In this document: positions 30,662-46,396 of the stretch, one piece after another
Numbering within the stretch: position 1 is the stretch's first letter
Layout of the letters: each line of letters opens with the position of its first letter
Assembly (NCBI GenBank): GCA_007751255.1
Contig: CP036296.1
Coordinates: 4,278,001 to 4,342,000, forward strand
Direction: 5' to 3'
DNA from: Engelhardtia mirabilis
GTDB taxonomy: Bacteria; Planctomycetota; UBA1135; GCA-002686595
DNA: 64,000 nucleotides
Program-made: the position numbers and the translations under genes
Notes under the pieces: generated by a model
What the model was told of the DNA's origin: nothing
Database searches by the model: none
The model's input: only the letters and a program-made list of their open reading frames with translations

Positions 30662-33450
30662 GCACACAGAACCCCGACCGCCGCTCGCTGCTGCGCCTGG
30701 GCGCCGCCCTGATGGGCGGAGGTGGCCTGGCCGCCTGCGCCTCCACTCCCGAATCCGCGCAGGGTCCCACCGTCGTGCGCGGGCGATCGGCGGCGGCCTC
30801 CGAGAGCGCGCGCGTCTGGCAGGAGGGCGCGGGCAAGCCCTACTCCGAAGGTGTCCTGCACGCCCCCGGCGTCTGCCCCCTGCCCGGCCCCAACAAGAAG
30901 ACGCGCTTCCCGGATCCGGACAAGTACAAGGACACCGAGCGAGTGCCCGGGATGTGTCAGCTCTGCTCGACGGTCTGCGGCACCATCGCCCACGTCAAGG
31001 ACGGGCGGGTGATCAAGATCGACGGCAACCCCAAGGATCCCAACTCGCGCGGCAAGCTGTGCGCCCGGGGTCAGGCCGGCCTCAACCACCAGTACCACCC
31101 CGAGCGCCTGCTCTACCCGCTGAAGCGTGTCGGCGAGCGCGGCGCGGGCAAGTGGCGGCGTATCACCTGGGACGAGGCCTACGACGAGCTCGCCACGCGC
31201 CTGAACGCCTGCCGCGAGAGCGACCCGACCCAGTTCGCCTTCCACCAGGGCCGCAGCCGCTCGAAGGACCCGGTCTCGGCCTTCTTGGACGCCTTCGGCA
31301 CGAAGACGCAGCTCAACCACCGCGGGCTGTGCTCGGCCTCGCGCCGCGCGGCGAACCTGACCTACCTGTTCGAGTCGGACTGGGACCTCGGCGACTACCA
31401 GCACACGAAGTACATCTTGAACTTCGGCTCCAACATGTTCGAGGCTCACCAGGGCCACGTCGCCGGGGCCCAGCGCATCCAGCAGGGCCGCTTCGACAAC
31501 GGGGCCAAGCTGGTCACCTTCGACGTGCGCATGTCGAACACCGCCGGCAACTCCGACGAGTTCTTCATGCCGCGCCCGGGAACAGACGGCGCCATCGCCC
31601 TGGCCTTGGCCCACGTGATCGTCAAGGAAGGCCTGGCGGACGCGCAGTGGTTCAAGACCTGGGCCAATGCCAGCCTCGAGGACGTCTGGGAGCACGTGTT
31701 GAAGGACACGACCCCTGAGTGGGCCGAGGGCGTCAGCACCGTGCCCGCCGCGGACATCGCGCGCATCGCTCGCGAGTTCGCCGCCGCTGCGCCGCGCGCC
31801 ACGACGATGTGCAATCGCGGCTCCTCCGCCCACGTCAACGGCTACTACAACGACCGCAGCATCATCCTGCTGAACGGCCTGGTGGGCAGCGTCGGCAAGC
31901 ACGGCGGCTGGTGTTGGATGTGGACCGGCGGCATGGATTCGGGGCGCTTCAAGCTGCCGCCGCAGCCGGCCAAGACCAGCGCGAAGTCCGTCCTCGCCGA
32001 CCCGCCGGAGTTCGTGCTCGCCAACACCTGGAACACGATGCGCGTGGGCGAGATCGTGTATTGGTACCTGAAGCAGGAGCGGGCGCGGATCCAGGTCTAC
32101 ATGACCTACAACCTCGACTCGCCCATGACCTGGCCCGAGATGGACGTCACGCGCAGCGTCCTCTTGGACGAGGACAAGATCGGGTTCCACGTCTGCATCA
32201 ACCCCTTCTACAACGAGACGGCGCACTTCGCGGACATGGTCCTGCCCTGGACCACCTACCTCGAGCGTTGGGAGCTCGACGCGCGCGGGGCCTACAACCT
32301 GAGGCCCTACGTCAACGTCCGCTGGCCGATCGCCGAGCCCCTGGGCGAGGCCAAGGACCTGCGCGAGATCCTGCCCGAGCTCGCGCGCCGCATGGGTGGC
32401 GACATGGCCGAGCAGTGGTTCGCCCAGCACAGCCAGGAGGAGTACATGCGCGAGTGGGCGAAGGACATCCCCTTCGACGCCGAGAAGTACGCGGACCCCC
32501 TCGACTTCCTGCGCCACGAGGGGGCCTATGAGGATCCCGAACAGCGGCCCTACTTCGAGCCGCACCTCTTGCCCTTGACCGAGGCCGATCTGGCGGACTC
32601 CGTGACGGACGAAGCGACCGGGGTCATCACCAAGGACGGCAAGGGCATCGGCATCTGGATCGACGGCGAGGCGGTGCGCGGCTTCAAGACCCCCAGCCGC
32701 AAGTTCGAGGTCTACTCCGAGTTCGTGGTCAAGACCGCGCGCAACGAGGACACCAGCGATCTGACTTCGCTCGCCAACTCGAAGGGTAAGAATCGGGCCT
32801 CCCACCACCGCGGGCACGAGTACGAGCTCTCGCCCTGGCCCAAGTTCGAGCTGCCCGAAGAGCACCGGGACCTCGACGAGGACCAGCTCGTGATGACGTC
32901 CTTCAAGTGGTGCGTCCACAACCACGGTCGGACCGCCAACCTGAAGTGGTGCTCCGAGATCGTGCACTCGAACCCGGCCTGGCTGCACCCGGAGACGGCC
33001 AAGCGCTTCGGGTTGAAGAACGGCGACTGGATCGAAGTCACAGGCTATCGCTCGACAACCCTGCACCGGGCCATGCCCGGGCTCGAGCTCGGCGACGGCC
33101 CGATCGAGCGCAAGCTCGAGCTGCCGATCGTGGTGACCAAGGGGGTCCACCCCGCTGCCATCGCGATCTCGAACTCCCTCGGGCACGACCAATACACCCG
33201 CGTGGCCCAGGCCAGCAGGCAGGGTCCCGTCGGCAGTCAGTCCGCGGGGATGGACCGCGCCGGCCTGCGCGACGAAGACTGGGAGCGCAACATGTGGTGG
33301 CAGGACGACTCCGGCGGCGACCGCGCCAAGTGGCAACGCAACACCGGCAACGGCTGGGCCCAGAACCACGTGCTGCCGATCGCTCCGGACTACATCTCGG
33401 GCCAGCAGGCCTTCAACAGCACCGTCGTGCGGATCCGGAAGCTCTCGTGA
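30658..33450 (+). CDS. molybdopterin oxidoreductase catalytic subunit (DMSO reductase family), Tat lipoprotein
   Basis: A 930-residue catalytic subunit. The N-terminus combines a twin-arginine motif (DRRSLLRLG) with a lipobox-like GLAAC, so it is probably exported folded and lipid-anchored. The 4Fe-4S binding domain is CQLCSTVCGTIAHV followed by SRGKLCARGQAG. Cys225 in HRGLCSASRRA is the likely molybdenum ligand, placing it nearer the Psr/Phs/Nar-periplasmic-type enzymes than the Ser-ligated ones. Further pterin-binding blocks: ILNFGSNMFEAHQGH, LNGLVGSVGKHGG, and the C-terminal molydop-binding domain (AKRFGLKNGDWIEVTGYRS). The substrate cannot be deduced; polysulfide, thiosulfate, tetrathionate and arsenic oxyanions are all possible. 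It is coupled to both flanking genes by 4-bp overlaps. Confidence 0.88.
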   Translation: MSTQNPDRRSLLRLGAALMGGGGLAACASTPESAQGPTVVRGRSAAASESARVWQEGAGKPYSEGVLHAPGVCPLPGPNKKTRFPDPDKYKDTERVPGMCQLCSTVCGTIAHVKDGRVIKIDGNPKDPNSRGKLCARGQAGLNHQYHPERLLYPLKRVGERGAGKWRRITWDEAYDELATRLNACRESDPTQFAFHQGRSRSKDPVSAFLDAFGTKTQLNHRGLCSASRRAANLTYLFESDWDLGDYQHTKYILNFGSNMFEAHQGHVAGAQRIQQGRFDNGAKLVTFDVRMSNTAGNSDEFFMPRPGTDGAIALALAHVIVKEGLADAQWFKTWANASLEDVWEHVLKDTTPEWAEGVSTVPAADIARIAREFAAAAPRATTMCNRGSSAHVNGYYNDRSIILLNGLVGSVGKHGGWCWMWTGGMDSGRFKLPPQPAKTSAKSVLADPPEFVLANTWNTMRVGEIVYWYLKQERARIQVYMTYNLDSPMTWPEMDVTRSVLLDEDKIGFHVCINPFYNETAHFADMVLPWTTYLERWELDARGAYNLRPYVNVRWPIAEPLGEAKDLREILPELARRMGGDMAEQWFAQHSQEEYMREWAKDIPFDAEKYADPLDFLRHEGAYEDPEQRPYFEPHLLPLTEADLADSVTDEATGVITKDGKGIGIWIDGEAVRGFKTPSRKFEVYSEFVVKTARNEDTSDLTSLANSKGKNRASHHRGHEYELSPWPKFELPEEHRDLDEDQLVMTSFKWCVHNHGRTANLKWCSEIVHSNPAWLHPETAKRFGLKNGDWIEVTGYRSTTLHRAMPGLELGDGPIERKLELPIVVTKGVHPAAIAISNSLGHDQYTRVAQASRQGPVGSQSAGMDRAGLRDEDWERNMWWQDDSGGDRAKWQRNTGNGWAQNHVLPIAPDYISGQQAFNSTVVRIRKLS

Positions 33451-34046
33451 CAGGGTCGCCGAGCGCCGACGCTGCACCGGGCCACGAGGCGCCGGCGGAC
33501 CCCGAGCGAGCCCCCCTGCGGGCCGTCGCGGACCTCCTCGGACAGCTCCTACTGAGAGAGGTGGACAGCGCCCAACTCGAGCGCCTGCGCGAGCCGCCCC
33601 TCGCGGCGGCGCTGGGCGAGTGGGGCATCGAACTCCCGCCCCCCACCGAGCAGGCGAGTTGGATCGAGGCCCGCGGCGCCGACTACCACGACCTGTTCCT
33701 GCGCCCAGAGACCGGACCGCTGGTCCAGTCCCTGTGGACCCAGGGTCGCTACGAGGGCGACGCCACCGTGCGCGTGCGCAAGCTGGCCGAGGTCGCCGGC
33801 ATGGAGTTCCAACGCTCCGCCGCCCGCGGTGCGGCGGTCGACCACCTGGGCAGCCTGCTGCTCCTGTGGAGCGCGACCGACGGCCACGCCCAGGCCGTCG
33901 CCGACGAGATCGCGGCCGCGCATCTGGAGTGGGGACTCGCGGGGATGGCCCGAATCGAATCGACCGGCGGGTTCTACGGCGCCGTGGCTGCCGCGGCCGC
34001 CGACCTGGTTCGCGCGATCCTCGCGGCGTCGCCACTCACGCGTTAG
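33447..34046 (+). CDS. TorD/DmsD-like molybdoenzyme maturation chaperone
   Basis: A 199-residue, mostly helical cytoplasmic protein. The TorD-family signature is seen at about residues 75-100 (DYHDLFLRPETGPLVQSLW), with the DH-LGSLLLLW segment later. These chaperones bind the Tat leader of the catalytic subunit and hold export until the cofactor is inserted. GTG 33447 overlaps the catalytic-subunit stop (GTGA), so the three genes form one translationally coupled operon. The stop at 34046 is the last backbone gene end before the accessory region. Confidence 0.75.
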   Translation: MTGSPSADAAPGHEAPADPERAPLRAVADLLGQLLLREVDSAQLERLREPPLAAALGEWGIELPPPTEQASWIEARGADYHDLFLRPETGPLVQSLWTQGRYEGDATVRVRKLAEVAGMEFQRSAARGAAVDHLGSLLLLWSATDGHAQAVADEIAAAHLEWGLAGMARIESTGGFYGAVAAAAADLVRAILAASPLTR

Positions 34047-34147
34047 GACGCACCACGCGCCCGATCTCGACCACCCCGACGGAACGCACCCCTCCCCGGT
34101 CCCCCCGAGCTGTCCCCCTCTGCGCGCCGCCGAGACGCAAGGACGGC

Positions 34148-34590
34148 TCAGTGAGCACGGCCGCCGCCCCCCAGGCGCTTGGCGAGCTGGGGAGTCGAAC
34201 ATGTCTCCTCGGGACTCTCCGCACCCTTCTCCGTGCGGGCGGCAACGACCCTGGCACCGGGGGGCTCCGCCATCGCGCGAAGGTAGCGTTTCTCCGACGG
34301 GGTCAGGCGATCGAAGCGAACGCGGAAGAAGCTCTCGTCGAGCGAAGCAATCGCAGATGCCGAGGCAGTCTCGACATCGTGCAGGGCAATCGGCGAACTC
34401 AGCGCAACGTCCCAGACATGCTTGCCCCACTCCTGGAGGAAGTAGGGGTAGCCATGCGTTTCCTCCACGATGCGATTCAGTGCCTGCGGGTCGAACTCCA
34501 CACCTTCGACCCGCGCAGGTTTCGCGAGCGCCGAGCAAGCGTCCCCGGGAGGGAGTGTGAGCGCGGTCGATCGGATGGGTGCCGTCGGAC
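34148..34590 (-). pseudogene. C-terminal remnant of an AAA-type ATP-binding protein
   Basis: The minus-strand frame reads AKPARVEGVEF, RIVEETHGYPYFLQEWGKH and FFRVRFDRLTPSEKRYLRAM. These are the sensor/lid and following segments of the large ORC/Cdc6-like AAA ATPases common in mobile regions. The P-loop half is missing, and after RYLRAMAE the usual winged-helix continuation is lost, so both ends are truncated. The upstream break coincides with the left copy of the 84/85-bp direct repeat (34558-34641). Probably debris from an earlier insertion. Confidence 0.6.
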
Positions 34591-34641
34591 CGCTTGCCTC
34601 TGACTGCTTTCGTCGAGTGCTCCGGTTGTAGTGGTACCGAG
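34558..34641 (+). repeat. 84-bp direct repeat, left copy
   Basis: Matches 42394-42478 in the same orientation with a handful of mismatches and one-base indels. It starts TGAGCGCGGTCGA and ends GTGGTACCGAG. The two copies bracket the AbiE/primase-helicase operon. Translated, the end reads FVEC-x-GC/S-GG-like, similar to the zinc-ribbon piece of the serine-recombinase remnants, so it may be recombinase-derived debris rather than a transposon end. Confidence 0.8.
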
Positions 34642-34721
34642 CCAGTGTCCTGGATCAGCAGTTCGGCGTGACTTCCCAGGCTCCGATCGCCGCTGGCGTC
34701 GTTGCGCGTCCTCCGATCCTG

Positions 34722-34797
34722 CCCCCGCTACCACCGACCAACGCAAAGAGCCGCCCCCTTGGAGGCGGTCCTTTGCGTTGGTTGGTGGTAGCGGGGG
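34722..34797. repeat. tRNA-3'-end-like imperfect palindrome (candidate distal attachment site A)
   Basis: Left arm CCCCCGCTACCACC-(G)ACCAACGCAAAG, right arm its near-complement ending GGTGGTAGCGGGGG, with a GC-rich hairpin between (CCGCC...GGCGG). It is a diverged copy of the palindrome that follows the initiator tRNA at 58205-58300. The right arm contains TGGTAGCGGGGGC, the reverse complement of the tRNA 3' end with CCA, and continues CTC-x-TG-x-GCTCGAC as at 56702-56716. It fits the distal end of an island integrated at the tRNA. The rest of 34602-34833 has no gene. Confidence 0.65.
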
Positions 34798-34833
34798 CCT
34801 CATGTGCTCGACAGCAGAGCGCGATCGGCACCG

Positions 34834-36450
34834 TCAGCCCCTCCTTCCATGCCTCGCCGTCCCGAGGTGCTCGTCGAGCTCGCCTTGCAGCGCCGGGTAG
34901 CGGCTGTAGCGGGATCGCAGTCGGGCGATCCAGCGGCCGCCTTCCGGAGTCGCGTCGAGGTTGGCGCACGCAGCGACCAACTGGGCCGCGTGCCCGTAGT
35001 GCCGGCGCCGCTGCTCCTTGGTCACACCCTCCACACGCTTCTCGGCCGCCTTCCGCATGGCCGCGAGCATCGCAGACCTGGCCTCCGCACAGATCGGCCG
35101 CCTGACTCCAGCGGCCTCCAGGATCGCGGCCACGTCGGGCGCCCGGAGTCGCGGCTCGTCCGGATCGGCGTTCATCGGTCCCAGCTCGTCCAGGTCCATG
35201 CAGCGCACCGGCGACGGTCGGCGGCCGGACCCGGCTCCGGAATCCCCATCGCCCAACAGCTCGGCGAACAGTGGAAAGACCAGGTGACCCGGATGCTCCG
35301 GGCTCGACCAACCCAACCCCGGCGCCGCGGAGAGCCGCTTCGCCGCGGACTCCAGGTCTCCGACTACCATGTGGAGCACGGCACGCTGACGCTCGTCGCG
35401 CTTGGGACACGCCTCGAGTGCCTCCACCGTGCTGCTCCTGATTCGGGCTGCGGTCCGAGCCGCACCGAGCCAGCGCCGGAGCCGTACCAGGCTCGGTGCC
35501 TCGCGCCACACCTGCTCGAGTCGAGCAGGCAGGTCTCGGCGGCCGAGCTCCTGCGCGGCCAGCGCGGCTCCGTCCAGGAACTCGCCGCGACGGTGCGAGT
35601 CATCGCGGACGGTCTCAGCAGCTTCCTCGAACGCCGCGAGCGCGGCCTTCCAGTCCGTCACTTCGACCAGCGCACGACACCAGACGCGCAGGTCCTGGCC
35701 GCGCCGCGTAGCACGCGCATGCGCCGCGAGCCCATCCACCCCCTCGAGGCGCTGCACGACCTCACGCATCCATCGATCCTCGTCGGAGTCCCAGCCACCT
35801 CGGCTGGCGCCGCCGGCGGCTTCCTTCTCGATCAGGGCACGCCACCGAGCCAGGAATCCGCCGAGGTCCGGCAACGGCTCGACGGCGACGCTCTCCATCT
35901 CTGAGAGCGGCTCCCAAAAGAGCCCCAGGTTTCCAGCCGCACGGAGCGCAGCGTGGACGGCCTCCGCGCGCTCTCCGGGATCGACGGTCATGTAGGTCGC
36001 CACGAGGTACCGCGCGGCGCACTGCCCGATGTCGACGGTGAGCACTTCGTCCGCCATCTCGTCTTGACCGAGATCGATGTCCGCGACGGCGATCGGTGGC
36101 AGCAAGGCGTGGAAGATCCGTCGCGCGCCCTCGTAGTCCTTGCGGAGGAAGGCGCCGGTCCCGCGGCGCAGGAACCGGTCGACGGCGCGCGGATCGGCGT
36201 AGTGGCTCCGCTCGGCCGTCTTCGCGAAGGAAAGGACCTCGGCCACCGCGTCATCGTCGGGGCCCTCGGGTTCCCACCCACTCCCCTTTCTCGCAGCGCA
36301 GGCCACGAGCCGATCGACCATCATGCCGCGCGCACGCTCGTCGAGATCGGGAAGCGCCTCCCGCAGCAGCTCGCGAAGATCCTCGGCTTCCAGCGCCTCG
36401 AGGGCGCCGGCCAAGCTGATTGCGGTCATCTTTCTCCTGCGGCGCCCCAT
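34834..36450 (-). CDS. unknown helical-repeat protein, last gene of the AbiE/primase-helicase operon
   Basis: A 538-residue cytoplasmic protein, rich in Ala, Arg and Glu, made of repeated amphipathic helices (for example WRALIEKEAAG, WKAALAAFEEAAETVRDDS, VVGDLESAAKRLSA, and RRRHYGHAAQLVAACANL near the C-terminus). The last segment, with HYGHAAQLVA, WIARLRSRYSRYPAL and ELDEHL, resembles the TPR-like C-terminal regions found in SWIM-domain and similar conflict-system proteins. I do not recognise a named family. There are no Cys-pair zinc motifs, signal peptide or membrane segment. ATG 36450 is 3 bp from the preceding gene's stop; an internal Met at 36429 (TAISLAGALEALEAEDL) is an alternative start. 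Its operon place suggests a regulatory or effector role in the same conflict system. Confidence 0.7.
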   Translation of the reverse strand: MGRRRRKMTAISLAGALEALEAEDLRELLREALPDLDERARGMMVDRLVACAARKGSGWEPEGPDDDAVAEVLSFAKTAERSHYADPRAVDRFLRRGTGAFLRKDYEGARRIFHALLPPIAVADIDLGQDEMADEVLTVDIGQCAARYLVATYMTVDPGERAEAVHAALRAAGNLGLFWEPLSEMESVAVEPLPDLGGFLARWRALIEKEAAGGASRGGWDSDEDRWMREVVQRLEGVDGLAAHARATRRGQDLRVWCRALVEVTDWKAALAAFEEAAETVRDDSHRRGEFLDGAALAAQELGRRDLPARLEQVWREAPSLVRLRRWLGAARTAARIRSSTVEALEACPKRDERQRAVLHMVVGDLESAAKRLSAAPGLGWSSPEHPGHLVFPLFAELLGDGDSGAGSGRRPSPVRCMDLDELGPMNADPDEPRLRAPDVAAILEAAGVRRPICAEARSAMLAAMRKAAEKRVEGVTKEQRRRHYGHAAQLVAACANLDATPEGGRWIARLRSRYSRYPALQGELDEHLGTARHGRRG

Positions 36451-36453
36451 GGG

Positions 36454-37062
36454 CTAACCCGCGCACTCCTCGAACAGAAAGGGCCACTCGGCCGCGCACT
36501 GCTGGCGCAGTCTGGCGAGCAACGCCTCGGGGTCCCTCCCCTCCTCGTGCGTGCCGAGCGTCAGGTAGTGGTTCCTCTCCTTGTGCACCGCGTAGAGAAT
36601 CCACTCGCCGGTCAGACGCCTGCGCCACGCCCGGTCCTCGTACCCCCCCACCGTGAGCCGATGGGCCAATACACGAGTCCACATGACCGGATCCTCGCCA
36701 TGTTCTTTGGCGATGGCCGCAAGTGCTTGGTCCAAGGCCTGGTTCCCGCCGCGATTCAGGCCCCAGCGTAGGCAGATGTTGCGCGGAATGTGCCGGGCGG
36801 ACGAGTAGTGCTTGTGCCAGAACCGCTGAAGAAGTGGATGCCGAAACGGCTTGGGCTCCTTGGTCATCGACGATTTCCCGATGCCCTCCAGAAAGTCCAT
36901 CTCGTCGAGAACGGGGAAGTAGTCCCCGCGGCCCTCGCGCAGTGCAACCAAGAGGATGGCGAGCGAAGTGCTCACACGATCTGCGTACACTCGTCCACCC
37001 ACGGCCTCGACCTTCAGGCTGCGACGCTCGTCAGGTCCCAGACTAATGCGCTGCATCTCCAT
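36454..37062 (-). CDS. unknown protein of the AbiE/primase-helicase operon
   Basis: A 202-residue protein: a short N-terminal part (MQRISLGPDERRSLKVEA) resembling the start of a regulator or small binding domain, then a helical middle (RHIPRNICLRWGLNRGG) and a conserved-looking end (GEWILYAVHKERNHYLTLGT, then HEEGRDPEALLARL and WPFLF). The C-terminal pattern, NxYLTL-x-H-EE, recurs in mobile-element proteins I cannot name. It overlaps the stop of the primase-helicase gene by about 20 bp and is followed after 3 bp by the 538-residue gene, so it is part of one transcription unit. Start ATG 37062; ATG 37056 is equally possible. Confidence 0.65.
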   Translation of the reverse strand: MEMQRISLGPDERRSLKVEAVGGRVYADRVSTSLAILLVALREGRGDYFPVLDEMDFLEGIGKSSMTKEPKPFRHPLLQRFWHKHYSSARHIPRNICLRWGLNRGGNQALDQALAAIAKEHGEDPVMWTRVLAHRLTVGGYEDRAWRRRLTGEWILYAVHKERNHYLTLGTHEEGRDPEALLARLRQQCAAEWPFLFEECAG

Positions 37063-39412
37063 GGGACAGTCCGCCCTGGCCTGTGTTGTTCGTGAATCCG
37101 ATGCCCTGGAGCGTCCTCTGCCGCCGGGCCTGCATCCGAGCGAGGACGGGAACCAGCCCATCTCGGTAGTCGTAGACGGTCACGGCGTGCTTCATTGTGT
37201 GCGAACGGAGGATGCGCCCAGCGTACTGGATGACCTTCCCGCGGAAGGAGATCGGGAACGCCAGCACCAGCGTGTCGAGGCGCGGCAGGTCGAAGCCCTC
37301 CCCCACCAAGGCCCCGGTGGCGACAACGAGCACGGGATTCTCTCGGCCCGCATCGTTCAGACCGGCGACACGGGTGAGACGCTCCTTCTTCTTCACGCCC
37401 CCGTGCAGCACGACCGGAGAAGTTCCGGCCGACTGCAGGGTCTCGGCCAGGCGTTCCAGGTGGTCTCGCCATTCCGTCAGGACCAGGCAGTTCTTCCCGT
37501 CCTCCACGGCTTCCCGGACGTCTTCGCAGATCAGACGGTTCCGGCCCTCGTCCTGCACGAGTTCCCGGTAGACCTGCTGGATGGGAGCGTCGACCCCCAG
37601 ATCCGGTTCGAAGCCCGTCGCGCGAACGACGAGCCAGCGCTCCATCGCATCGGCATCCGGGTTCCCTTCGGAACGGTAGCGGACGGGGCCGCAGCGCATC
37701 GTGATCAGCTCTCCGAGCCCGTCGCGCCGGTAGGGTGTCGCGGTCAAGCCCAGGACGAACCGGGCCGCGGCCTCCCGAATGACCGCGTCGAACGAGACGG
37801 CCGGGACGTGATGGCACTCGTCGACGACGACCTGTCCGTAGTCGGCGAACACCTCACTCGCCGCGTCGGGCTGGAGACTCTGGATCATGGCCAGGTCGAT
37901 CACCCGACTGCGGCGCTTGCGCCCGCCTCCCAGCTGTCCGATCTCCCTGGAAGACAGGCCCAGGGAGCGCTGGAGCTCGAGTTTCCACTGATCGAGCAGG
38001 TGTTTGCGGTGGACCAGCACGAGCGTCGGGACGCTCCTGGCCGCAATCACCGCACATGCCACGCGCGTCTTGCCGCTTCCCGGAGGCGCGACGAGAACGC
38101 CCTCGTCGTGGCGTAGGAGTTCGCGCGCCGCCGCTTGCTGGATCGGCGACAGGGCCTCCTCGAGGCGCAACGCAATGCGGCCGGGGAGCGTTCGCGAGTC
38201 TTCGACGTCCAGCCGTGATCCGACCTCTCGAACTGTGGACTCGAGCTGGCTCAGGACTCCCCGTGGAAGGTCAAGATGCGTCAGGTCTTCTCCGTAGCAG
38301 CGCACGAAGCGTGGCGTACCGTAGACCGACAGGCGCAGCTTCTGTCGCTTGTGGAACTCGGGATTGTGCAATGAGGCGAGATGCTTGATCCGAGCCAGGA
38401 GCGACGGCGGCAGGCCCGAGCGCTCCAGCGAGAGCCTCGGGCCCTGCACACAACGGATCGACTTCGGCGGGGGCGGCTCGGGAGCAGAACGCCCCCACCG
38501 CGACGGAAAGTTCGATCCTTCGGCTCCCACGTCCATCGGCGGCAGTTCGCCCAGGAGCGCCTCGAGAGCACCCGGCGTGAGGCGCCGCACCAGGCTGAGG
38601 CCCCGCCATGGATCGGGCCACGGCCGTAGTTCGCGATCGAGAAACTCCGTGTTCCCGAGCGCACGAGTTCCCTTCTGCAACGGCAACGCGATCAGGTTGC
38701 CGAAGCCGCCCTTGGGCATGAAATCCTGGTTCGGGAACAGGCGGTCGTAGCTCGTGAGCTCCATCTCACCCCTGGCGACCATGGTCTCGCGCAAGAGCCC
38801 GGTACCCAGCCTCCGGGCCTGGACCGCCGACACCGGGCGTGTGAAGAAGATCCAGACGTGCCCCCCCTGCCCGGAGCGCGACCGCTCCAGATAGGCGGGG
38901 ACCCGCCATCGATCGGCCGCTTCCAGGAATCCGAGCGCGTCCGGTGCCCACGTCGGCCCGTCGAAGTCGCAAGCGAGCAGGCGGCACGTGTCATCGCGGA
39001 GGAGCGGGTAGAGCCCGACGGTCTCCTCACCCGCGAGGTGCCGAAAGAGAACTTCCTCGGTCAGCGGAAGGTAGTCCTTGGCGCCGCACCCCGAGCGGCC
39101 GCGCGCCGCCGGCGAGTACCCCTTCTTCCCGCTGCGCTCGTCGCACCAGTAGCGGGCATACACGTCCTCGCGACCCCGGAAGAGCACTCGGAACAGCGCG
39201 ATCCTGTCTCGGGCCGTGGAACGAGCGTCCACCTGCGGCAGCGGATCGTCCTCGGGGAAGAGACGACCTGCCTCGACGTCGGCTTCCGGCAGGACGCCCG
39301 GCGGCAGGCCGAGCATCCCCCGAAGGCGCTCGTTCTCCGCGCGGAGCCGTGCGTTCTCATCCTCGAGTCCGGCCATGCGGTCAGTCGAGGGCTCCGCAAG
39401 CTGCAAGCTCAT
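37043..39412 (-). CDS. TOTE-type archaeo-eukaryotic primase fused to an SF2 helicase
   Basis: A 789-residue fusion. Residues 14-35 are a short coiled coil (LEDENARLRAENERLRGML). Residues about 65-300 form an archaeo-eukaryotic primase (AEP) domain: metal site CDFD (Asp149, Asp151), SGQGGHVWIFF (His185) and the later FGNLIALPLQ strand; this arrangement matches the AEP domain of TOTE conflict systems. Residues about 415-760 are a DEAD/DEAH-like helicase: PPGSGKTR (Lys448), DECH (531-534), TATPYR and QYAGRILR. The protein could synthesise or sense nucleic-acid ends and unwind DNA. ATG 39412 overlaps the stop of the nucleotidyltransferase gene (ATGA); an in-frame ATG at 39427 is less likely. It sits between a toxin-antitoxin pair and two unknown genes in one operon. 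Confidence 0.85.
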   Translation of the reverse strand: MSLQLAEPSTDRMAGLEDENARLRAENERLRGMLGLPPGVLPEADVEAGRLFPEDDPLPQVDARSTARDRIALFRVLFRGREDVYARYWCDERSGKKGYSPAARGRSGCGAKDYLPLTEEVLFRHLAGEETVGLYPLLRDDTCRLLACDFDGPTWAPDALGFLEAADRWRVPAYLERSRSGQGGHVWIFFTRPVSAVQARRLGTGLLRETMVARGEMELTSYDRLFPNQDFMPKGGFGNLIALPLQKGTRALGNTEFLDRELRPWPDPWRGLSLVRRLTPGALEALLGELPPMDVGAEGSNFPSRWGRSAPEPPPPKSIRCVQGPRLSLERSGLPPSLLARIKHLASLHNPEFHKRQKLRLSVYGTPRFVRCYGEDLTHLDLPRGVLSQLESTVREVGSRLDVEDSRTLPGRIALRLEEALSPIQQAAARELLRHDEGVLVAPPGSGKTRVACAVIAARSVPTLVLVHRKHLLDQWKLELQRSLGLSSREIGQLGGGRKRRSRVIDLAMIQSLQPDAASEVFADYGQVVVDECHHVPAVSFDAVIREAAARFVLGLTATPYRRDGLGELITMRCGPVRYRSEGNPDADAMERWLVVRATGFEPDLGVDAPIQQVYRELVQDEGRNRLICEDVREAVEDGKNCLVLTEWRDHLERLAETLQSAGTSPVVLHGGVKKKERLTRVAGLNDAGRENPVLVVATGALVGEGFDLPRLDTLVLAFPISFRGKVIQYAGRILRSHTMKHAVTVYDYRDGLVPVLARMQARRQRTLQGIGFTNNTGQGGLSHGDAAH

Positions 39413-40261
39413 CGTTCGCCGTCGCATTGCCTGACCAACTCGCGCACGAAGCCGGCGACATCAGCCAGGAACGTCGCGTCCCCCTGGCGAGCCAGGAATG
39501 CTGCGACGCGCATCGCACCGACCGAGTCCGGCGTCGTGAAGTCGCCCTCGAGGATCCCGAGCGCATCGCGCGCTGCGGGATCATCGAGCAACGGACGGAA
39601 CACCTCGGCGACCGTACGTGGACCGTCGCCGTGGTTGCGGAGCACGTAGTAGAGATCGTATGCGTCCTTGTTCTCGCCTCGCGACCGGAACGCAAGCGCC
39701 TTCAGAACCCAGGTAGGCCGCCGGTCCACAGACCCACACCTCGCGCACGGCCCGTTCGCCAAGGAGCGTCTCCCCGTCCAAGGTCACCTTCGTTCGGTCG
39801 CGAAACGCGAGCGGCAGCCCGGGGGCGATCAATGCCGCGAAGTCCTCCTCGAGGTCGCGGATCGTTCCTCCGCGGTCCACCGGCGTGCTCGGCGGAATCA
39901 GGAAGTCCACCGAGACGCCGCGTGAGCCTCTCCACACCCAGCGCTGCCGAGTTCTCCGGCCGGCCTCGTTCGCGTCGGGGCCGAATCCGGCCCGACGCAG
40001 GCGTTCGCTCAGTTCCTGGTAACGACCCTCATTGAGGAGACCCAGCGCGAGACCTATGTCCACGTCCAGCGTGCCGACATGCCGCTCCGCCCCGCTCGGA
40101 AGGGGCTCTTGAGCAACGATCAGGGACGGAACCAGACCGCCGACAAGGACAATCTCATCCGTCATGTCGCCGATCACGGTCGCCACGTGGAGGCACGTCC
40201 GGCGGGCACGTTCGAGGAACTCCGGGCCGTAGCCCACCGCGGTCGTCGGCTTGTCAGGCAC
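39409..40261 (-). pseudogene. AbiEii-family nucleotidyltransferase gene with a one-base frameshift
   Basis: The first two thirds (GTG 40261) read VPDKPTTAVGYGPEFLERAR, EIVLVGGLVPSL and TLDVDIGLALGLL (the G-G plus DxD nucleotidyltransferase site), through to REVWVCGPAAYL. The remaining third, VLKALAFRSRGENKDAYDLY to the stop at 39409, is in another frame. At 39708-39710 the minus strand has GGG; with GG the protein reads AAYLVLKALAF, the expected family sequence, giving 283 residues. So the toxin-type protein is split by one extra base, either a real inactivating mutation or a sequence error. It overlaps the AbiEi stop by 8 bp and ends inside the primase-helicase start. AbiEii toxins transfer nucleotides onto tRNA or other targets. 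Confidence 0.8.
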
Positions 40262-41309
40262 GGCTACTCCAGGAGAGCAACGTCTCCTCGATGTGACGCG
40301 CAGCCTCGCCGGCTCGTTCCGGCTGACCCAAGAGGTCGAGCCAGACCTGGATGGGACTGGCGCAGGGGAGGCCGTCCATCTTCTCGACGCCGGCGAAGAC
40401 GCCCTCGTCGACGGGGAGTGCCAGCCAGAGGTTCGCGCCGCGCTCCTCCTCGTGGAAGCCGAGGCTGTCGAGGACGTCACTCGACGGAAGGTCCGCCACG
40501 AAGCAGGTCACGGTGCGGAATGCGGCGAAGTGCGTGAGCAACCAGGCGCCAGCCAGGCCGGTGGCCGCGTGCTCGATGCCGGCGCCCGACAGCGCGTTCG
40601 ACACACGAGCCAAGAGCTCGTCCCCGGACCGCGCGGCAACGTGACCGCGGAGCAGGTGATGCCGCTCGAACGCGTAGCGTTCGGCCCAAGCCTCGAGCAG
40701 AAGCTCCGGATCACGCACCCGGACGCCTCCCCGCTCGTTCCGCTCGATCAGCTCGAGTTCCTCGAGGCGCCGCACGACACGGCTCACAAACCCCGCCCCC
40801 ACGTCGATAGCCGCGGCGATCTCCTTCTGGACGTGGAACTCGCCCTGATGCAGCAGGAGCCACCGCGCGACGCGCGAGCTCTTCGGCGCGAACGGGTTCG
40901 AGGGACGCCCCCGCCGCTTGAACCGGTTCTCTTTGCCTTCGACGCGGACGTGAACTCCCGGCGCGTCGATGTGCGCGTTCCCGGAGAGGTCCAGCCAGCT
41001 CACCCCGCTTTCGCTACAGATCCGCCGTCCCGCGTCGCCCATGAAGGGCACGGCGAGGAGCGCCACGTGCTCGATTCCGCTCCCATCTCGAAAGGCGGCG
41101 AGTTGTCGAATCCCCGCCGACACGCCTGCCACGTCGCCGGAGACCTTCCACTCGACGAGGTAGGCATGATCGCCGACCCGGATCACCGCATCGGGCTGGC
41201 GTCCGACCGCAGGGCCTGCGGGCCGGGTGGCCTTTGCCGGCGTCTCGAGCAGTTCCTCGAGCCGTCGAGCGACCTTCTCGAGGGCCAGGGGTTCGGGCGG
41301 GGGTTTCAC
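40254..41309 (-). CDS. AbiEi-family antitoxin / transcriptional regulator with REase-like N-terminus
   Basis: A 351-residue protein, first gene of the operon. Residues 40-56 (DAVIRVGDHAYLVEWKV) carry a D-E-x-K arrangement (Asp40, Glu53, Lys55) like the PD-(D/E)xK fold. Then comes GVSWLDLSGNAHIDAPGV, RRGRPSNPFAPKSSR and a winged helix (EFHVQKEIAAAIDVGAGFVS, RRLEELELIER). The C-terminal half (HAATGLAGAWLLTHFAAFR, VWLDLLGQPERAGEAA) matches AbiEi-family antitoxins, which repress their own promoter and counteract the AbiEii nucleotidyltransferase. GTG 41309 lies 8 bp from an AT-rich palindrome that could be its operator. The partner gene overlaps its stop by 8 bp, as in typical AbiE pairs. Confidence 0.75.
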   Translation of the reverse strand: MKPPPEPLALEKVARRLEELLETPAKATRPAGPAVGRQPDAVIRVGDHAYLVEWKVSGDVAGVSAGIRQLAAFRDGSGIEHVALLAVPFMGDAGRRICSESGVSWLDLSGNAHIDAPGVHVRVEGKENRFKRRGRPSNPFAPKSSRVARWLLLHQGEFHVQKEIAAAIDVGAGFVSRVVRRLEELELIERNERGGVRVRDPELLLEAWAERYAFERHHLLRGHVAARSGDELLARVSNALSGAGIEHAATGLAGAWLLTHFAAFRTVTCFVADLPSSDVLDSLGFHEEERGANLWLALPVDEGVFAGVEKMDGLPCASPIQVWLDLLGQPERAGEAARHIEETLLSWSSRA

Positions 41310-41316
41310 AGTTCAC

Positions 41317-41333
41317 TAAATCTAGTTGATTTA
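41317..41333 (-). promoter_or_regulatory. palindromic operator candidate upstream of the AbiEi-type gene
   Basis: TAAATC-TAGTT-GATTTA, a perfect 6-bp inverted repeat in an AT-rich patch, unusual in this GC-rich DNA, 8 bp before the GTG start of the antitoxin gene. AbiEi proteins are known to bind inverted repeats in their own promoter, so this is a natural autoregulatory site, possibly overlapping the -10 element. Not tested. Confidence 0.5.
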
Positions 41334-41780
41334 CCCGCGGGTCTATCGAGCCATTCTCGGCCCGCGCCCAAGCTGGGCAGGCCCCGGAACCCTAACAAGG
41401 GCCGAACTTCGGGTCCACTCTGCTCCGGGGCTCACGGGCCTGCTTCTGGATCTCTCGGTCGCTTGTCAGGTTCGCCGCGGCCCGCCGCTTCACCCCGCTG
41501 GTCGCTACGGGGAGCAGGACTCCCCATCGCGGCTCCGAACGTCAAGTGAAGCCCGGCCCGGACCCCGGGGCGGCTCTCCGGCCCCCGGAATGGGCCCCTG
41601 GGGGGTCGCACAGCGCCATGGCCGGCTTGCCAGTTCGAACTTCTAGTGTTTCCTTCCCCCCGGGAAGGCCCTGATCGCCCTGGCTGCAGCGAACGACCTG
41701 AGTCTCCATGGGGGTATCCGGCAGCCCCTGCCAGGCCAAGACGACGCCCCCAGGCGCAGGGCGGCCGGTCCGGGCCCCAG
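41334..41780. other. gene-free stretch between the AbiE operon and recombinase remnant
   Basis: About 450 bp of GC-rich DNA separating the divergent AbiE operon and the recombinase remnant. No open frame has a family resemblance. A GGG/CCC-rich block (41560-41600) and a C-run followed by GGGAAGG (41655-41668) are notable only for composition. It must contain the operon promoter at its left edge. Confidence 0.4.
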
Positions 41781-42440
41781 GTGGCTGCCCGCTACCTCCG
41801 CCGCTCGACCGACCGTCAGAAGCAGTGCATCCCCGACCCGAGGAACGCCGTCCGGCGTCCGGCCTTCCAGGAGATGGTAGGGCTGGCCCAGCAGGAACGC
41901 TGGCTGTCGTCGTACGTCGTCGGCTACGACGTCAACCGCTTCGCGCGGGCTCTACAACGACGAGGCGGGGTACTGCCGGCGCAGCTTCCGCATCGACGGC
42001 GTTCAGGTGCTGTACGTCGGCGGCAACTTCTCAGGAGGTGCGGCCCGCGACCTGCGGCGGCCCGTCGAGCAGTGTCAGGGGCGCGAGGATTCCAAGGACC
42101 TCGCCAAGGTGACGATCCGGGGGATGCTCTCCCGCGTCGAGAGCGGCTACTGGAACGGCGGTTCTCCCCCGCCGACCACGCCCTCCGCTACGAGGGCCCG
42201 CGCGAGGACGGCGGGGTGGTCCTCTTCGTCCTGCGATGCCAGGCCGACGGGAGCAGGCTGGTCCTCGACGAGTCCGGCGAGGTCGTCCGCACACTCGGTC
42301 GCGGGGAGCACCTGCTGGCTTCGAAGCGGGATCCCAGCCGCCGCATCCTGAGCTCCCCGGAGCGCGTCGGCCTGGTCCGCCGCATCTTCACGATGAGCGC
42401 GGTCGACCGGATGGGTGCCGTCGGGACCGCTTGCACCTGA
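41781..42440 (+). pseudogene. serine recombinase (resolvase family), N-terminal and middle parts, two frameshifts
   Basis: Three frames together spell a large serine recombinase: VAARYLRRSTDRQKQ and RRPAFQEMVGLAQQ then VVGYDVNRFAR (first frame, to about 41945); LYNDEAGYCRRSFRIDGVQV, LYVGGNFSGG and EDSKDLAKVTIRGMLSRVES (second frame, to about 42165); LRYEGPREDGG and SSPERVGLVRRIFTM (third frame). The usual nucleophile region is recognisable as YLRRSTD, with Ser retained. It then stops at 42438-42440 after AVDRMG, just where intact proteins continue with YRAIAxxLN. That continuation is found 12.8 kb away at 55241. The gene cannot make an intact enzyme. Confidence 0.75.
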
Positions 42441-42478
42441 CTGCTTTCGTCGAGTGCGCCGGTTGTGGTGGTACCGAG
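42394..42478 (+). repeat. 85-bp direct repeat, right copy
   Basis: Second copy of the sequence at 34558-34641. Its first part overlaps the end of the serine-recombinase remnant; its last part encodes, in one frame, AFVECAGCGGTE. Together the copies enclose 7.75 kb containing the whole AbiE/primase-helicase operon. Confidence 0.8.
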
Positions 42479-42905
42479 ATTGGCGTTCGACGGGCCGAGT
42501 GAATGAGCCGCGAGGATGGCGGGCCGGTCAAGGCCTTCGGGTTGGGGGCGCCCCCCGCACTCGAGTCGATTGGCGGGGACTGGGGAAGTTCGCGGAGGCC
42601 GGGCAGGAGCAGAGACCAAGCCATGCGACGGCTGGGGCGAGCTGGCAGGAGTTTCGTTGAGCACCACACGAGACGTCCACCGCGCGCAGGCCCTACCGGA
42701 CAGGGCCGAGGGACAAGGTCGGGACGACGCCTAGGAGACGAGAGATGTCGTCACCCATGCCTGCTCGTGGGGTCCGGCCCGGCCAGGGCGTGGCCGGAAC
42801 GAGATGCGGGAGCCTTGCCGCATCGCGCGCGGCGCCCCCCGGGACCCAATCCCCGAAGAAGAATGCCCTCCCGGAACCGAAGCGCGTCCGCGAGAATCCC
42901 CGCAG
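42479..42905. other. gene-free stretch before the second sigma-factor gene
   Basis: About 430 bp. Frames in both directions are short and low in family signal. It presumably contains the promoter of the downstream sigma/kinase operon; no clear promoter elements are seen. Confidence 0.4.
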
Positions 42906-43499
42906 ATGGTCGGTTCTCGTTTCCCAGGCGACGACCAACCGGTAGCCCGGATCCTCAACGCCGTCGAGGAGGGCGTGCCGGAAGCGTCGAGCCAGCTCCT
43001 TCCCTTGGTCTACGGGGAGCTCCGCAAGCTGGCCGCGGCGCGCATGGCCCGGCTCTCGCCAGGGCAGACCCTCCAGGCGACGGCGCTGGTGCACGAGGCC
43101 TACGTCCGCCTGGTGGGCAGGACCAACCCCGGTTGGCAAGGTCGGGCGCACTCCTTCTGCGCCGCCACGCGTGCCATGCGCGGCATCCTGGCCGACCACC
43201 TGCAGAAGAAGGGCAGCCCGAAGCGGGGCGGACATCTACGCCGATTGGACATGGAGACGATGGCAGAGCTGTCCGGGGACGGTCCGAATGGCGCTGCGCT
43301 CGCGGTCGAAGAGGCGCTGCAAGCTCTCGAACAGGTGCACCAGCGAAAGGCCGAGGTCGTGACGCTCATGTTCTTCGGTGGGCTGACCGCGAAGGAGATC
43401 GGTGAAGTCCTCTCCGTCTCGTCGCGCACGGTCGAGAGTGACTGGCGCTTCGCGAAGGCCTGGCTCAACCGTTGGCTCGCGGACCGGGAGGAGGAGTGA
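42906..43499 (+). CDS. ECF-family RNA polymerase sigma factor (second copy, in accessory region)
   Basis: A 197-residue ECF sigma factor of the same planctomycetal group as the one at 4.8 kb, but only distantly similar in detail. Region 2 is LLPLVYGELRKLAAARMARL with LVHEAYVRLVG; region 4 is RKAEVVTLMFFGGLTAKEIG with SVSSRTVESDWRFAKAWLNR. ATG 42906 is used because homology begins just after it; the frame is open upstream to 42804 with non-family sequence. The stop is overlapped by the kinase start (GTGA at 43496-43499) after a GGGAGGAGG that serves as the kinase ribosome-binding site. A full sigma/kinase pair inside an island suggests the pair can move as a unit. Confidence 0.9.
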   Translation: MVGSRFPGDDQPVARILNAVEEGVPEASSQLLPLVYGELRKLAAARMARLSPGQTLQATALVHEAYVRLVGRTNPGWQGRAHSFCAATRAMRGILADHLQKKGSPKRGGHLRRLDMETMAELSGDGPNGAALAVEEALQALEQVHQRKAEVVTLMFFGGLTAKEIGEVLSVSSRTVESDWRFAKAWLNRWLADREEE

Positions 43500-46396
43500 C
43501 GCCGCGCCTTTCCCCCGCTGAACGCCAGCGGCTGGAGACGCTCTTCGAACGGCTGGCCGACCTCGCCCCCTCGGAACGCGCGGCGTTCATCGACCGGGAG
43601 TGCCCCGGCAACGACGCGCTACGGAGGGAGCTCGAGTGGCTGCTGGCGGGCCTCGAGTCCGAGGACCTCCTCGGCCGCGCGCAGGTGGCCCTGGCGTCGC
43701 GCATCGGGACCGAGGTCGGTCCCTACCGGCTGGTCGAGAAGCTCGGGGAAGGCGGGATGGGCGAGGTCTACGCCGCCGAGCAGAGCGACCCCGTCGTGCG
43801 CCGCGTGGCCCTGAAGGTCATCAAGCCCGGAATGGACAGCGCCCAGGTCATCGCCCGCTTCGAATCGGAGCGCCAGGCCCTGGCGCGCATGACGCACCCC
43901 AACATCGCCATGGTTCTCGATGCCGGCGCCACCACCGAGGGCCTGCCCTACTTCGTCATGGAGCTGGTGGAGGGACAGCCGATCAACGAGCACTGCGACC
44001 GCCAGAGGCTTTCGATGCGAGAGCGCCTGGAGCTCTTCCTCGCGATTTGCGACGGCGTCCAGCACGCGCACCAGAAGGGCATCATCCACCGCGACCTCAA
44101 GCCGTCGAACCTGCTGGTCACGCAACAGAATGGCCCCGCCGTCCCGAAGATCATCGACTTCGGCGTCGCACGCGCGACGACCGGCCGCCTGTCCGCACGC
44201 ACGCTCTTCACCACCGTGGGCCAGGTCGTCGGCACACTCGACTACATGAGCCCCGAGCAGGCCGATCCGATGGGCCTCGACGTGGACACGCGCTCGGACA
44301 TCTACTCCCTGGGGGTGGTGCTCTATCAGCTCGCCAGCGGCCTCCTGCCGTTCGATCACGCCTCGACGGCACGGCGGCTCTCCGAGGTGCAACGCACGAT
44401 CCGTGAGGTGGATCCACCCACGCCGAGCACGCGCCTACGTCGCCAGACGGAAACGGCGTCGGCGGTCGCGCGGCTCCACGGAACCGACGAGCGCGCGCTG
44501 CTCCGCGAGCTCACCGGGGACCTCGACTGGATCTGCCTCAAGGCACTCGAGAAGGACCCCGCGCGGCGCTACGCGTCCGCCGACGAGTTCGCGGGCGACG
44601 TTCGCCGCCACCTCGCCCACGAGCCCGTGCTCGCCGCACGACCCGGCACGCTCTATCGCCTGCGCAAGTTCGTGCTCCGCAACCGCACGGCCGTCGTGGC
44701 CGCCACGGTCTTGGCTGGGGCGGCTCTGACGGCCGCCTATGGCATCGCCTCGGGCAAACTCGAGGCGGAGGCCAGCGCGCGCGTCGCGGAGGCGCTCCGG
44801 CCCCAGGCGGACGCACACGAGCTGGTGCTGCTCGAGCGGGAAGCCGATCGCCTGTGGCCCCCGCACCCGGATCTGATTCCGGCCCTGGACGCGTGGTTGG
44901 AGCGAGCGCGAGCGCTGGCGTCCCGACTCGCGAACTACCGACAGGAACGCGATCAGCTACGCAGTCGCGCGAAGGGCTGGACCGAGGCGGAACAGGCAGC
45001 GGACCGTGCCACGCATCCGCGCGCGGCCGAGCTGCGGGAGAAGCGGGCTGAACTCTCGATCTGGATCAAGGAACTCGGCAGCCCGCAGCGCAACGCGGAC
45101 TGGCTGACCGACCGGCCGCGGGAGGCCCTGGCTCGCCTGGAGGAGCTCGACAGCCTCGAAGAGGAGCTGGGGAATCGGCGCACTTGGACCTTCGACTCGG
45201 ATCTGGAGCGTTCCCGACTCAAGGTGCTGAGCGACCTGGTCGTCGCCCTCGAAGAGCTGACGGACGAGGAGACCGGCCTGCTCGGCGCGCAAGCCCTCTC
45301 CGTCACACACGGCTGGAGCGTACCGCATCGACTGGAGTTCGCACGTGAGCTCGAGGCGACCTTCGCCGAGGGCGGAGAAGCTCGAGCCGCCTGGGACGCG
45401 GCACTCCCGTCGATTCGCGCGACCTACCCGGGCGTCGAACTCGAACCGCAGGTTGGACTCCTGCCCCTGCGCGCGGATCCGGAATCGGGCCTGTGGGAAT
45501 TCGCGCACCTCCAGACGGGAGAACCGCCCTTGCGTGGCGCAGACGGCGAGCTCGTCGTGGACGCGGCGACCGGGCTCGTCCTCGTGCTGCTTCCTGGCGG
45601 GAGGTTCGTGATGGGCGCACAGAGCAACGACCCGACGGGCCCGAACTTCGACAGCGACGCGCGCACGGAGGACGAAGGCCCCCCGCACCCGGTGCGGCTC
45701 TCCGCCTTCTTCCTCTCGAAGTACGAGATGACGCAGGCTCAGTGGGAGCGAACCATGGGGAAGAATCCCAGCTTCTACACCTGGTTCTCACCGACGCACC
45801 CGGTCGAGTCGGTTAGCTGGCTCGACTGTGACGACGCGCTGTTCCGGCTGGGCCTCTCGTTCCCCACGGAGGCTCAGTGGGAGTTCGGGGCACGGGGCGG
45901 CCGAGACAGCCCGTGGTGGACGGGGGCGGACGCCGAGACTCTGCGTGGGACGGCCAACCTGGGGGGTCCCGGCCTCGAAGATACGCACCAGTACCATGCG
46001 CCCGTGGGCGAGTACGCGACCAATCCGTTCGGCCTGAAAGGGGTTCACGGAAACGTCAGGGAATGGATCTTGGATGGCTGGAGCCACCGCATCCACGCCT
46101 ATGAGGAGACCACCGATCTCTTGGTCCCCCCCGCCGGCCCGACCCGCATCACCCGTGGCGGCAGCTGGAAACACGGAGCCAGCGTCGCGCGCGCGTCGTC
46201 GCTGACCACTCATTCGGCCGCCTTCACCGACAGCGACCTTGGCCTGCGACCGGCCAAGGAGATCTCGGGCCCCGCCCAAGGCCCGGCGACGGGGAGCGAC
46301 GAGCTCGCGACGAGCAACCTCCGCCGCGAACTGGAGGCGGTCCTCGGACGCGAGGGCGCGCCTACGCGCGAGCCCCCCCACTCCGGAGGTCGCTAG
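43496..46396 (+). CDS. Ser/Thr kinase with C-terminal formylglycine-generating-enzyme-like domain
   Basis: A 966-residue protein. Kinase domain: EKLGEGGMGEVYAAE, VALKVIKPGM, HRDLKPSNLL (Asp200), DFGVARA, YMSPEQ. One membrane helix follows (AVVAATVLAGAALTAAYGIA), then a long helical coiled region (about 430-650). Residues about 690-930 are a formylglycine-generating-enzyme/sulfatase-modifying-factor-like domain: GGRFVMGAQSND, YEMTQAQWERTMG, PVESVSWLD, FPTEAQWEFGARGG, GVHGNVREWILDGW, RGGSWKH. The active-site Cys pair of true formylglycine enzymes is not visible, so this is more likely a C-type-lectin-fold sensing domain outside the membrane. GTG 43496 is fixed by the overlap and strong ribosome-binding site. 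Confidence 0.9.
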   Translation: MTPRLSPAERQRLETLFERLADLAPSERAAFIDRECPGNDALRRELEWLLAGLESEDLLGRAQVALASRIGTEVGPYRLVEKLGEGGMGEVYAAEQSDPVVRRVALKVIKPGMDSAQVIARFESERQALARMTHPNIAMVLDAGATTEGLPYFVMELVEGQPINEHCDRQRLSMRERLELFLAICDGVQHAHQKGIIHRDLKPSNLLVTQQNGPAVPKIIDFGVARATTGRLSARTLFTTVGQVVGTLDYMSPEQADPMGLDVDTRSDIYSLGVVLYQLASGLLPFDHASTARRLSEVQRTIREVDPPTPSTRLRRQTETASAVARLHGTDERALLRELTGDLDWICLKALEKDPARRYASADEFAGDVRRHLAHEPVLAARPGTLYRLRKFVLRNRTAVVAATVLAGAALTAAYGIASGKLEAEASARVAEALRPQADAHELVLLEREADRLWPPHPDLIPALDAWLERARALASRLANYRQERDQLRSRAKGWTEAEQAADRATHPRAAELREKRAELSIWIKELGSPQRNADWLTDRPREALARLEELDSLEEELGNRRTWTFDSDLERSRLKVLSDLVVALEELTDEETGLLGAQALSVTHGWSVPHRLEFARELEATFAEGGEARAAWDAALPSIRATYPGVELEPQVGLLPLRADPESGLWEFAHLQTGEPPLRGADGELVVDAATGLVLVLLPGGRFVMGAQSNDPTGPNFDSDARTEDEGPPHPVRLSAFFLSKYEMTQAQWERTMGKNPSFYTWFSPTHPVESVSWLDCDDALFRLGLSFPTEAQWEFGARGGRDSPWWTGADAETLRGTANLGGPGLEDTHQYHAPVGEYATNPFGLKGVHGNVREWILDGWSHRIHAYEETTDLLVPPAGPTRITRGGSWKHGASVARASSLTTHSAAFTDSDLGLRPAKEISGPAQGPATGSDELATSNLRRELEAVLGREGAPTREPPHSGGR

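Follow-up and report, generated by a model that had tools for sequence, protein, structure and literature searches.

AbiE toxin-antitoxin genes beside a primase-helicase: a recurrent arrangement and its frame-broken copy in Engelhardtia mirabilis

AbiE systems are widespread, and to our knowledge the trigger for their activation during infection is unclear. The window analysed here, 64,000 nucleotides of the Engelhardtia mirabilis genome (contig CP036296.1, positions 4,278,001 to 4,342,000), carries on its minus strand a cluster of five genes (34834..41309) in which the antitoxin gene AbiEi and the toxin gene AbiEii are followed by a fusion of an archaeo-eukaryotic primase (AEP) and a superfamily 2 (SF2) helicase and by two further genes, p202 and p538. 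The locus raises the question of whether the primase-helicase belongs with the AbiE pair. The three genes AbiEi, AbiEii and primase-helicase very probably form a real recurring unit, of which the window holds a damaged example. A recurrent operon-encoded primase-helicase would offer a concrete trigger, open to experiment, that ties toxin release to DNA replication; its coupling to AbiE, if true, would explain what some, at least, of the common AEP-SF2 fusions do.

Gene layout and the core proteins

The AbiEi-type antitoxin gene (40254..41309, 351 aa) overlaps by 8 bp the AbiEii gene, of which the N-terminal part occupies one frame (39581..40261, 226 aa) and the C-terminal part another (39409..39762). 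AbiEii meets the primase-helicase gene (37043..39412, 789 aa) at an ATGA that holds the start of the latter, the primase-helicase overlaps p202 (36454..37062) by 20 bp, and a 3-bp gap separates p202 from p538 (34834..36450). These minus-strand junctions, reported in the initial annotation, held when the coordinates were rechecked, as did the frames of AbiEi, the primase-helicase, p202 and p538; AbiEii, counted there as the remaining gene, is not one intact gene. All five genes form one apparent transcription unit, and the overlapping gene ends suggest translation coupling. An Rfam scan of 30000-46000 gave no match.

The primase-helicase matches the Pfam families AEP-TOTE (PF22548; 7e-79, 265 bits), ResIII (6e-23) and Helicase_C (8e-9), and D149, D151, H185, the GKT at 447-449, D531, E532 and H534 are invariant in an 11-row alignment, which bears out the earlier description of AEP primase motifs joined to a full SF2 helicase. 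The DxD and H positions of the AEP part are presumably catalytic motifs. The protein shares AEP catalytic motifs and matches to PADLOC PrimPol models (8e-82 and 9e-23) with the CRISPR-associated and mobile-element PrimPols of the AEP superfamily, from which it differs in its fusion to an SF2 (ResIII-type) helicase. Its assignment to TOTE conflict systems, an acronym for TPR, OB, TBP and Effector in the passages of PMC12458937, stands in part: the primase falls in AEP-TOTE and p538 has a weak TPR similarity below the family cut-off, whereas no OB/cold-shock or TATA-binding protein (TBP) component was detected among the five genes with Pfam, PADLOC, NCBIfam and PHROGs.

AbiEi consists of an N-terminal segment, a winged helix-turn-helix (HTH) and an AbiEi_2 C-terminal domain, with HTH_Crp_2 (3.5e-7, 30.5 bits) and AbiEi_2 (5.5e-6, 27.2 bits) both above the Pfam cut-off. 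In an alignment of the window protein with five relatives, the N-terminal segment contains an invariant E and, in five of the six rows, an ExK motif; judged by eye, and with no library match, it possibly adopts a PD-(D/E)xK-like fold. When the alignment was compared with solved structures, nearly all matches were HTH regulators, located at the HTH, and the ExK segment received no support. The N-terminal part of AbiEii keeps GG, DxD and VDF motifs, which we take to be those of a nucleotidyltransferase, and has no Pfam match by itself; it is 58% identical over 153 aa to a copy in another Planctomycetota genome (G116), encoded about 4 kb from the primase-helicase and in the other orientation. The C-terminal part scores 22.0 bits (E 1.7e-4) against PF08843, for which the cut-off is 22.5, and two relatives of the same type score 20 bits (L125) and 31.5 bits (L147, from G411); L-numbers denote loci and G-numbers genomes of the comparison set. 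The overlapping antitoxin and toxin genes, the AbiEi_2 domain with its winged HTH, the nucleotidyltransferase motifs and the near-cut-off PF08843 score thus resemble AbiE type IV toxin-antitoxin systems. The differences are the extra N-terminal ExK segment of AbiEi, the frame-broken AbiEii and the primase-helicase as a third gene, where known AbiE operons are bicistronic (PMC3985639). No description of an AbiE/primase-helicase pairing was found in the titles and abstract openings of the papers listed on AbiE, AEP/PrimPol and TOTE; in the passages of PMC5862659, AbiE is absent and the word 'toxin' occurs twice.

Recurrence of AbiE beside the primase-helicase

Close relatives of the primase-helicase are found in 19 of 294 Planctomycetota genomes, including that of Engelhardtia mirabilis itself. 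A PF08843 match lies within 10 kb of the gene in four of the 18 others (G087, G215, G245 and G273); the order is AbiEi-AbiEii-SIR2-like-helicase in G215, helicase-AbiEi-AbiEii in G273 and helicase-two genes-AbiEi-AbiEii in G245, with AbiEi in all three and SIR2 named by eye. A further planctomycete locus (L065:1193-5297) shows an AbiEi-AbiEii-SIR2-like-primase-helicase operon after an integrase, the SIR2-like protein and the integrase again being recognized by eye.

A scan of named genomes gave at least 577 primase-helicase relatives, of which the best 80 were retained. These 80 genomes contain 287 PF08843 and 94 PF22548 matches in 349 Mb. AbiEii lies directly upstream of the primase-helicase on the same strand, with at most 0.6 kb between the domain matches, in 12 of them (G341, G346, G348, G354, G357, G358, G361, G368, G369, G380, G389 and G411). 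Eleven of the 12 exceed the PF08843 cut-off (G348 only with frame neighbours), and the AbiEii of G389, which falls below it, is similar to that of the window. Under uniform placement, 0.04 upstream AbiEii would be expected within 1 kb (P ~2e-26). Within 10 kb, 12 PF08843 matches fall in the single upstream strand-kb and 8 in the other 39 strand-kb, contig ends being uncorrected, and this excess at one position indicates that clustering in genomic islands is insufficient by itself. The coupling of AbiE with a TOTE-type AEP/SF2 protein proposed in the initial annotation therefore recurs far above genome-wide chance, and the whole five-gene set does not. Six further genomes (G364, G381, G398, G400, G410 and G415) have PF08843 matches at other positions up to 10 kb away, counting both strands, and window-type AbiEi genes missed by PF08843 lie near the helicase in L139 and L106.

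Gene order and spacing were compared in 100 other primase-helicase loci (L054-L153, which include L136 and L096 as duplicates from the same contigs as L059 and L056), the neighbouring genes being predicted with a custom script by which short or broken genes may be missed. Two loci (L125 and L147) reproduce the exact AbiEi-AbiEii-helicase order of the window with a window-type AbiEi and a 4-bp AbiEi/AbiEii overlap. In four others (L090, L093, L097 and L105) the genes also abut or overlap, and the AbiE genes belong to another sequence cluster, so that the primase-helicase is paired with AbiE genes of two or more unrelated lineages. According to their titles, some of which may err, the records with upstream AbiE, mostly metagenome bins, come from Gammaproteobacteria, Deltaproteobacteria, Acidobacteria, Nitrospira and Verrucomicrobiota-type bacteria besides Planctomycetota. 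In a FastTree phylogeny of 92 primase-helicases, the presence of upstream AbiE (14 rows) requires 7 changes and that of AbiE at any position (20 rows) 11, as counted without a shuffle control; AbiE adjacency is thus scattered on the tree. The tree left out the duplicate contigs L136 and L096, primase-helicases shorter than 450 aa (L064 among them) and G380:C620; L106 was labelled 'upstream' on AbiEi alone, and L091, the broken AbiEii of which was recognized afterwards, was not labelled AbiE-adjacent. The window protein groups with those of L074, L075, L076, L107 and L108, in which no AbiE was seen, two of these five stretches starting at or just before the helicase; the AbiE pairing of the window accordingly looks separately made.

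That the three genes constitute a module, possibly a defence or stability operon, appears somewhat more probable than its negation when stated without a detailed trigger. A specific coupling mechanism can be offered only tentatively. In described AbiE systems (PMC3985639 and PMC7319586), AbiEi represses its operon and neutralises AbiEii. In the present operon, AbiEi would likewise bind its own promoter, repress transcription and neutralise AbiEii, and the primase-helicase may act on foreign or stalled replicating DNA by unwinding and priming. Engagement, failure or damage of the helicase could then decide when the AbiEii nucleotidyltransferase is freed to stop growth. The primase-helicase would in that case be a true third component of widespread type IV toxin-antitoxin operons, sensing replicating or invading DNA and setting AbiEii activity, for which different AbiE lineages have been recruited repeatedly; we consider this possible, at rather less than even confidence.

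A competing and still less probable explanation is that AbiE serves only as addiction cargo, stabilising mobile elements whose own replication, repair or counter-defence the primase-helicase serves, and that the shared transcript has no regulatory meaning. It draws on plasmid-borne primase-helicases without AbiE that lie beside transposases, recombinases or satellite-type genes, on the recombinase remnants flanking the window copy, and on the stabilisation of an integrative element with the help of AbiE (PMC11062541). Against it, order and orientation are kept, the genes abut or overlap and the AbiE lineages are unrelated; as random cargo, AbiEii would not be expected to stay on one strand and no more than about 0.6 kb upstream.

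Several observations weigh against the three genes as a functional unit. The retained 80 genomes are the most similar ones and not a random sample, and no PF08843 match lies within 10 kb of the AEP domain in 62 of them, many contigs ending nearby. Six of the 12 upstream cases (L082, L084, L090, L093, L094 and L105) form one related lineage, which implies fewer independent events. In seven plasmid neighbourhoods, examined from 109 helicase-bearing plasmid records, the helicase is accompanied by transposases, recombinases, a PDDEXK nuclease or HipA and by no annotated AbiE, and AbiE queries of the window type and of two other lineages matched none of these seven plasmid and 13 viral primase-helicase loci. 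Conversely, 25 plasmid records carry a window-type AbiEi, and 11 of these are annotated with AbiEi and AbiEii; among 40 listed of the 109 helicase-bearing records, two carry both AbiEi and the helicase, with the genes more than 100 kb apart. AbiEii is also broken or truncated at five AbiE/primase-helicase loci (L059, L064, L084, L091 and L117) besides the window, and the helicase frame is open in all of these five except L064. An open helicase beside a broken AbiEii indicates that the helicase can be retained after toxin loss, although caution is called for, since most of these genomes were assembled from metagenomes. The partnership is not obligatory, as many primase-helicases have no AbiE nearby.

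As a separate observation, one of the plasmid copies, in Escherichia albertii (L183:4376-10313), has the primase-helicase between a recombinase and a Tn3-family transposase. The five loci with a broken AbiEii perhaps reflect a trend in which the toxin is lost and the helicase retained.

The frame-broken toxin gene and the mobile-element remnants

Whether the toxin of the window copy still works depends on the AbiEii frame. The gene starts with GTG at 40261 and its frame stops at 39581, after 226 aa, whereas a different frame, 39762-39409, is the only one in which the conserved C-terminal part can be read; the frame change is located near 39700-39740. The relatives in L125 and L147 read through this region in a single frame, and AbiEii is likewise in one frame in L055, L057, L065, L082, L090, L093, L094, L097, L100, L105 and L139, the copies in L077 and L104 being cut by the locus ends. 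A programmed frameshift was considered and set aside, no slippery motif having been noticed in a sequence inspected by eye only. The break, seen in one genome sequence, is either a mutation or an assembly error, and unless it is the latter, the toxin of the Engelhardtia mirabilis copy is probably inactive. The nucleotidyltransferase, put forward in the initial annotation as the effector, is thus encoded here by a frame-broken gene.

The surroundings of the operon carry traces of mobility. A serine-recombinase-like gene remnant in several frames lies upstream on the plus strand (41770..42440), named by eye without a family search. A direct repeat of about 85 bp (93% identity between copies, both on the plus strand) brackets 34558-42478 with the operon inside; its left copy (34558..34641) adjoins a truncated ATPase-like open reading frame at 34148-34501, recognized by eye, and its right copy (42394..42478) lies inside the recombinase remnant, at its end. 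These repeats are possible element ends or the result of a partial duplication. The recombinase remnant, the direct repeats and a nearby arm of an insertion repeat together suggest that a mobile element, now decayed, brought the operon in.

On this evidence, the window copy may be a decaying relic, brought in on an element in which both the recombinase and the toxin later broke, and no longer a working toxin-antitoxin system; we hold the chances to be evenly balanced, and the proposal is compatible with a three-gene module. The AbiEii frame break, the recombinase remnant in several frames, the truncated 34148-34501 frame (the last two judged by eye) and the single repeat arm all fit such decay. 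The other four genes are nevertheless open, the primase and helicase motifs are conserved, and the frame break could be an assembly error.

The repeat arm at 34641-34718, next to the left copy of the direct repeat, is a single arm of a dispersed palindromic repeat with 79 matches in the same genome, the arms being up to 93% alike. Complete copies, as aligned from six loci, are about 165 bp long with terminal inverted repeats of about 30 bp. The repeat resembles a small non-autonomous insertion element, and an IS630-like origin is a guess made by eye. Just downstream of p538, an inverted repeat of 38 nt with a 2-nt loop (34721..34798) is a possible terminator of the operon.

p202, p538 and other neighbours

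The initial annotation had joined all five genes into a composite anti-phage or anti-plasmid system; in such a system p202 and p538 could serve as sensor or scaffold. The single apparent transcription unit would favour it, as would one p538 relative beside a primase-helicase (L124, convergent). In addition, hhalign weakly matches residues 84-174 of p538 (probability 61%, from a two-sequence profile) with a small gene that neighbours the primase-helicase in L055 and L058, which makes a loose link of p538 to the primase-helicase possible. Among the 100 other primase-helicase loci, however, a p202 relative occurs in none and a p538 relative in that one only, and a p538 relative in G079 adjoins restriction-type genes, as judged by eye. 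In every neighbourhood examined except one, relatives of p202 and p538 have neither the primase-helicase nor AbiE beside them, an outcome that the initial annotation had itself named as refuting the system. The five-gene system is thus largely refuted and very improbable. p202 and p538 would instead be later cargo that joined the operon transcript, beside the decayed mobile-element remnants.

p202 carries WHKH and TGEW..NYYL motifs and belongs to a phage and plasmid cargo family. Neither p202 nor p538 gave anything convincing in Pfam, and p202 matches one unnamed phage family in PHROGs (phrog_33791, 2e-9). Initial scans with p202 alone gave no match in genome or viral contigs. Among 60 further genomes from the same family and order one has a relative, and others occur in two phage and seven plasmid records and in 27 viral contigs. 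When tblastn was run with the window genes on six of the nine phage and plasmid records, on the element of genome G004 and on the 27 viral loci, it gave no AbiE, p538 or primase-helicase, so that the p202 relatives of seven plasmid, phage and genome loci and of 27 viral contigs stand without the other four genes. Identification of p202 as a toxin of known fold was rejected, as it matched no PDB profile and gave nothing convincing in Pfam or NCBIfam. In some hosts its relatives lie near toxin-antitoxin genes, such as RelB/YafQ in Polaromonas, and the closest relative (L009:7973-10301) lies, as judged by eye, behind what resembles a toxin-antitoxin-chaperone set of HigB/HigA/SecB type, within an integrative element; both observations are suggestive only.

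Relatives of the weakly TPR-like p538 were found in four of 293 other genomes of the phylum and in no plasmids, and the contigs of these four, which are short, contain no p202, AbiE or primase-helicase. p538 itself scores 13.6 bits against TPR_2 (E 0.076, cut-off 27), and the best value among six aligned relatives is E 0.0048, for TPR_16. Kinship of p538 with DUF6880-type neighbours of the primase-helicase was rejected (hhalign probability 0.7%).

Two other families occur near the primase-helicase. A family of about 380 aa starting with MSEYQYYEF, a second candidate partner, was found in 11 of 99 loci on nine distinct contigs (L055, L056, L059, L092, L114, L116, L131, L141 and L145), and 9 of its 12 proteins lie downstream of the primase-helicase on the same strand. 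Six loci on four distinct contigs have a DUF6880-type protein near the primase-helicase, the DUF6880 assignment being shown for L059 only.

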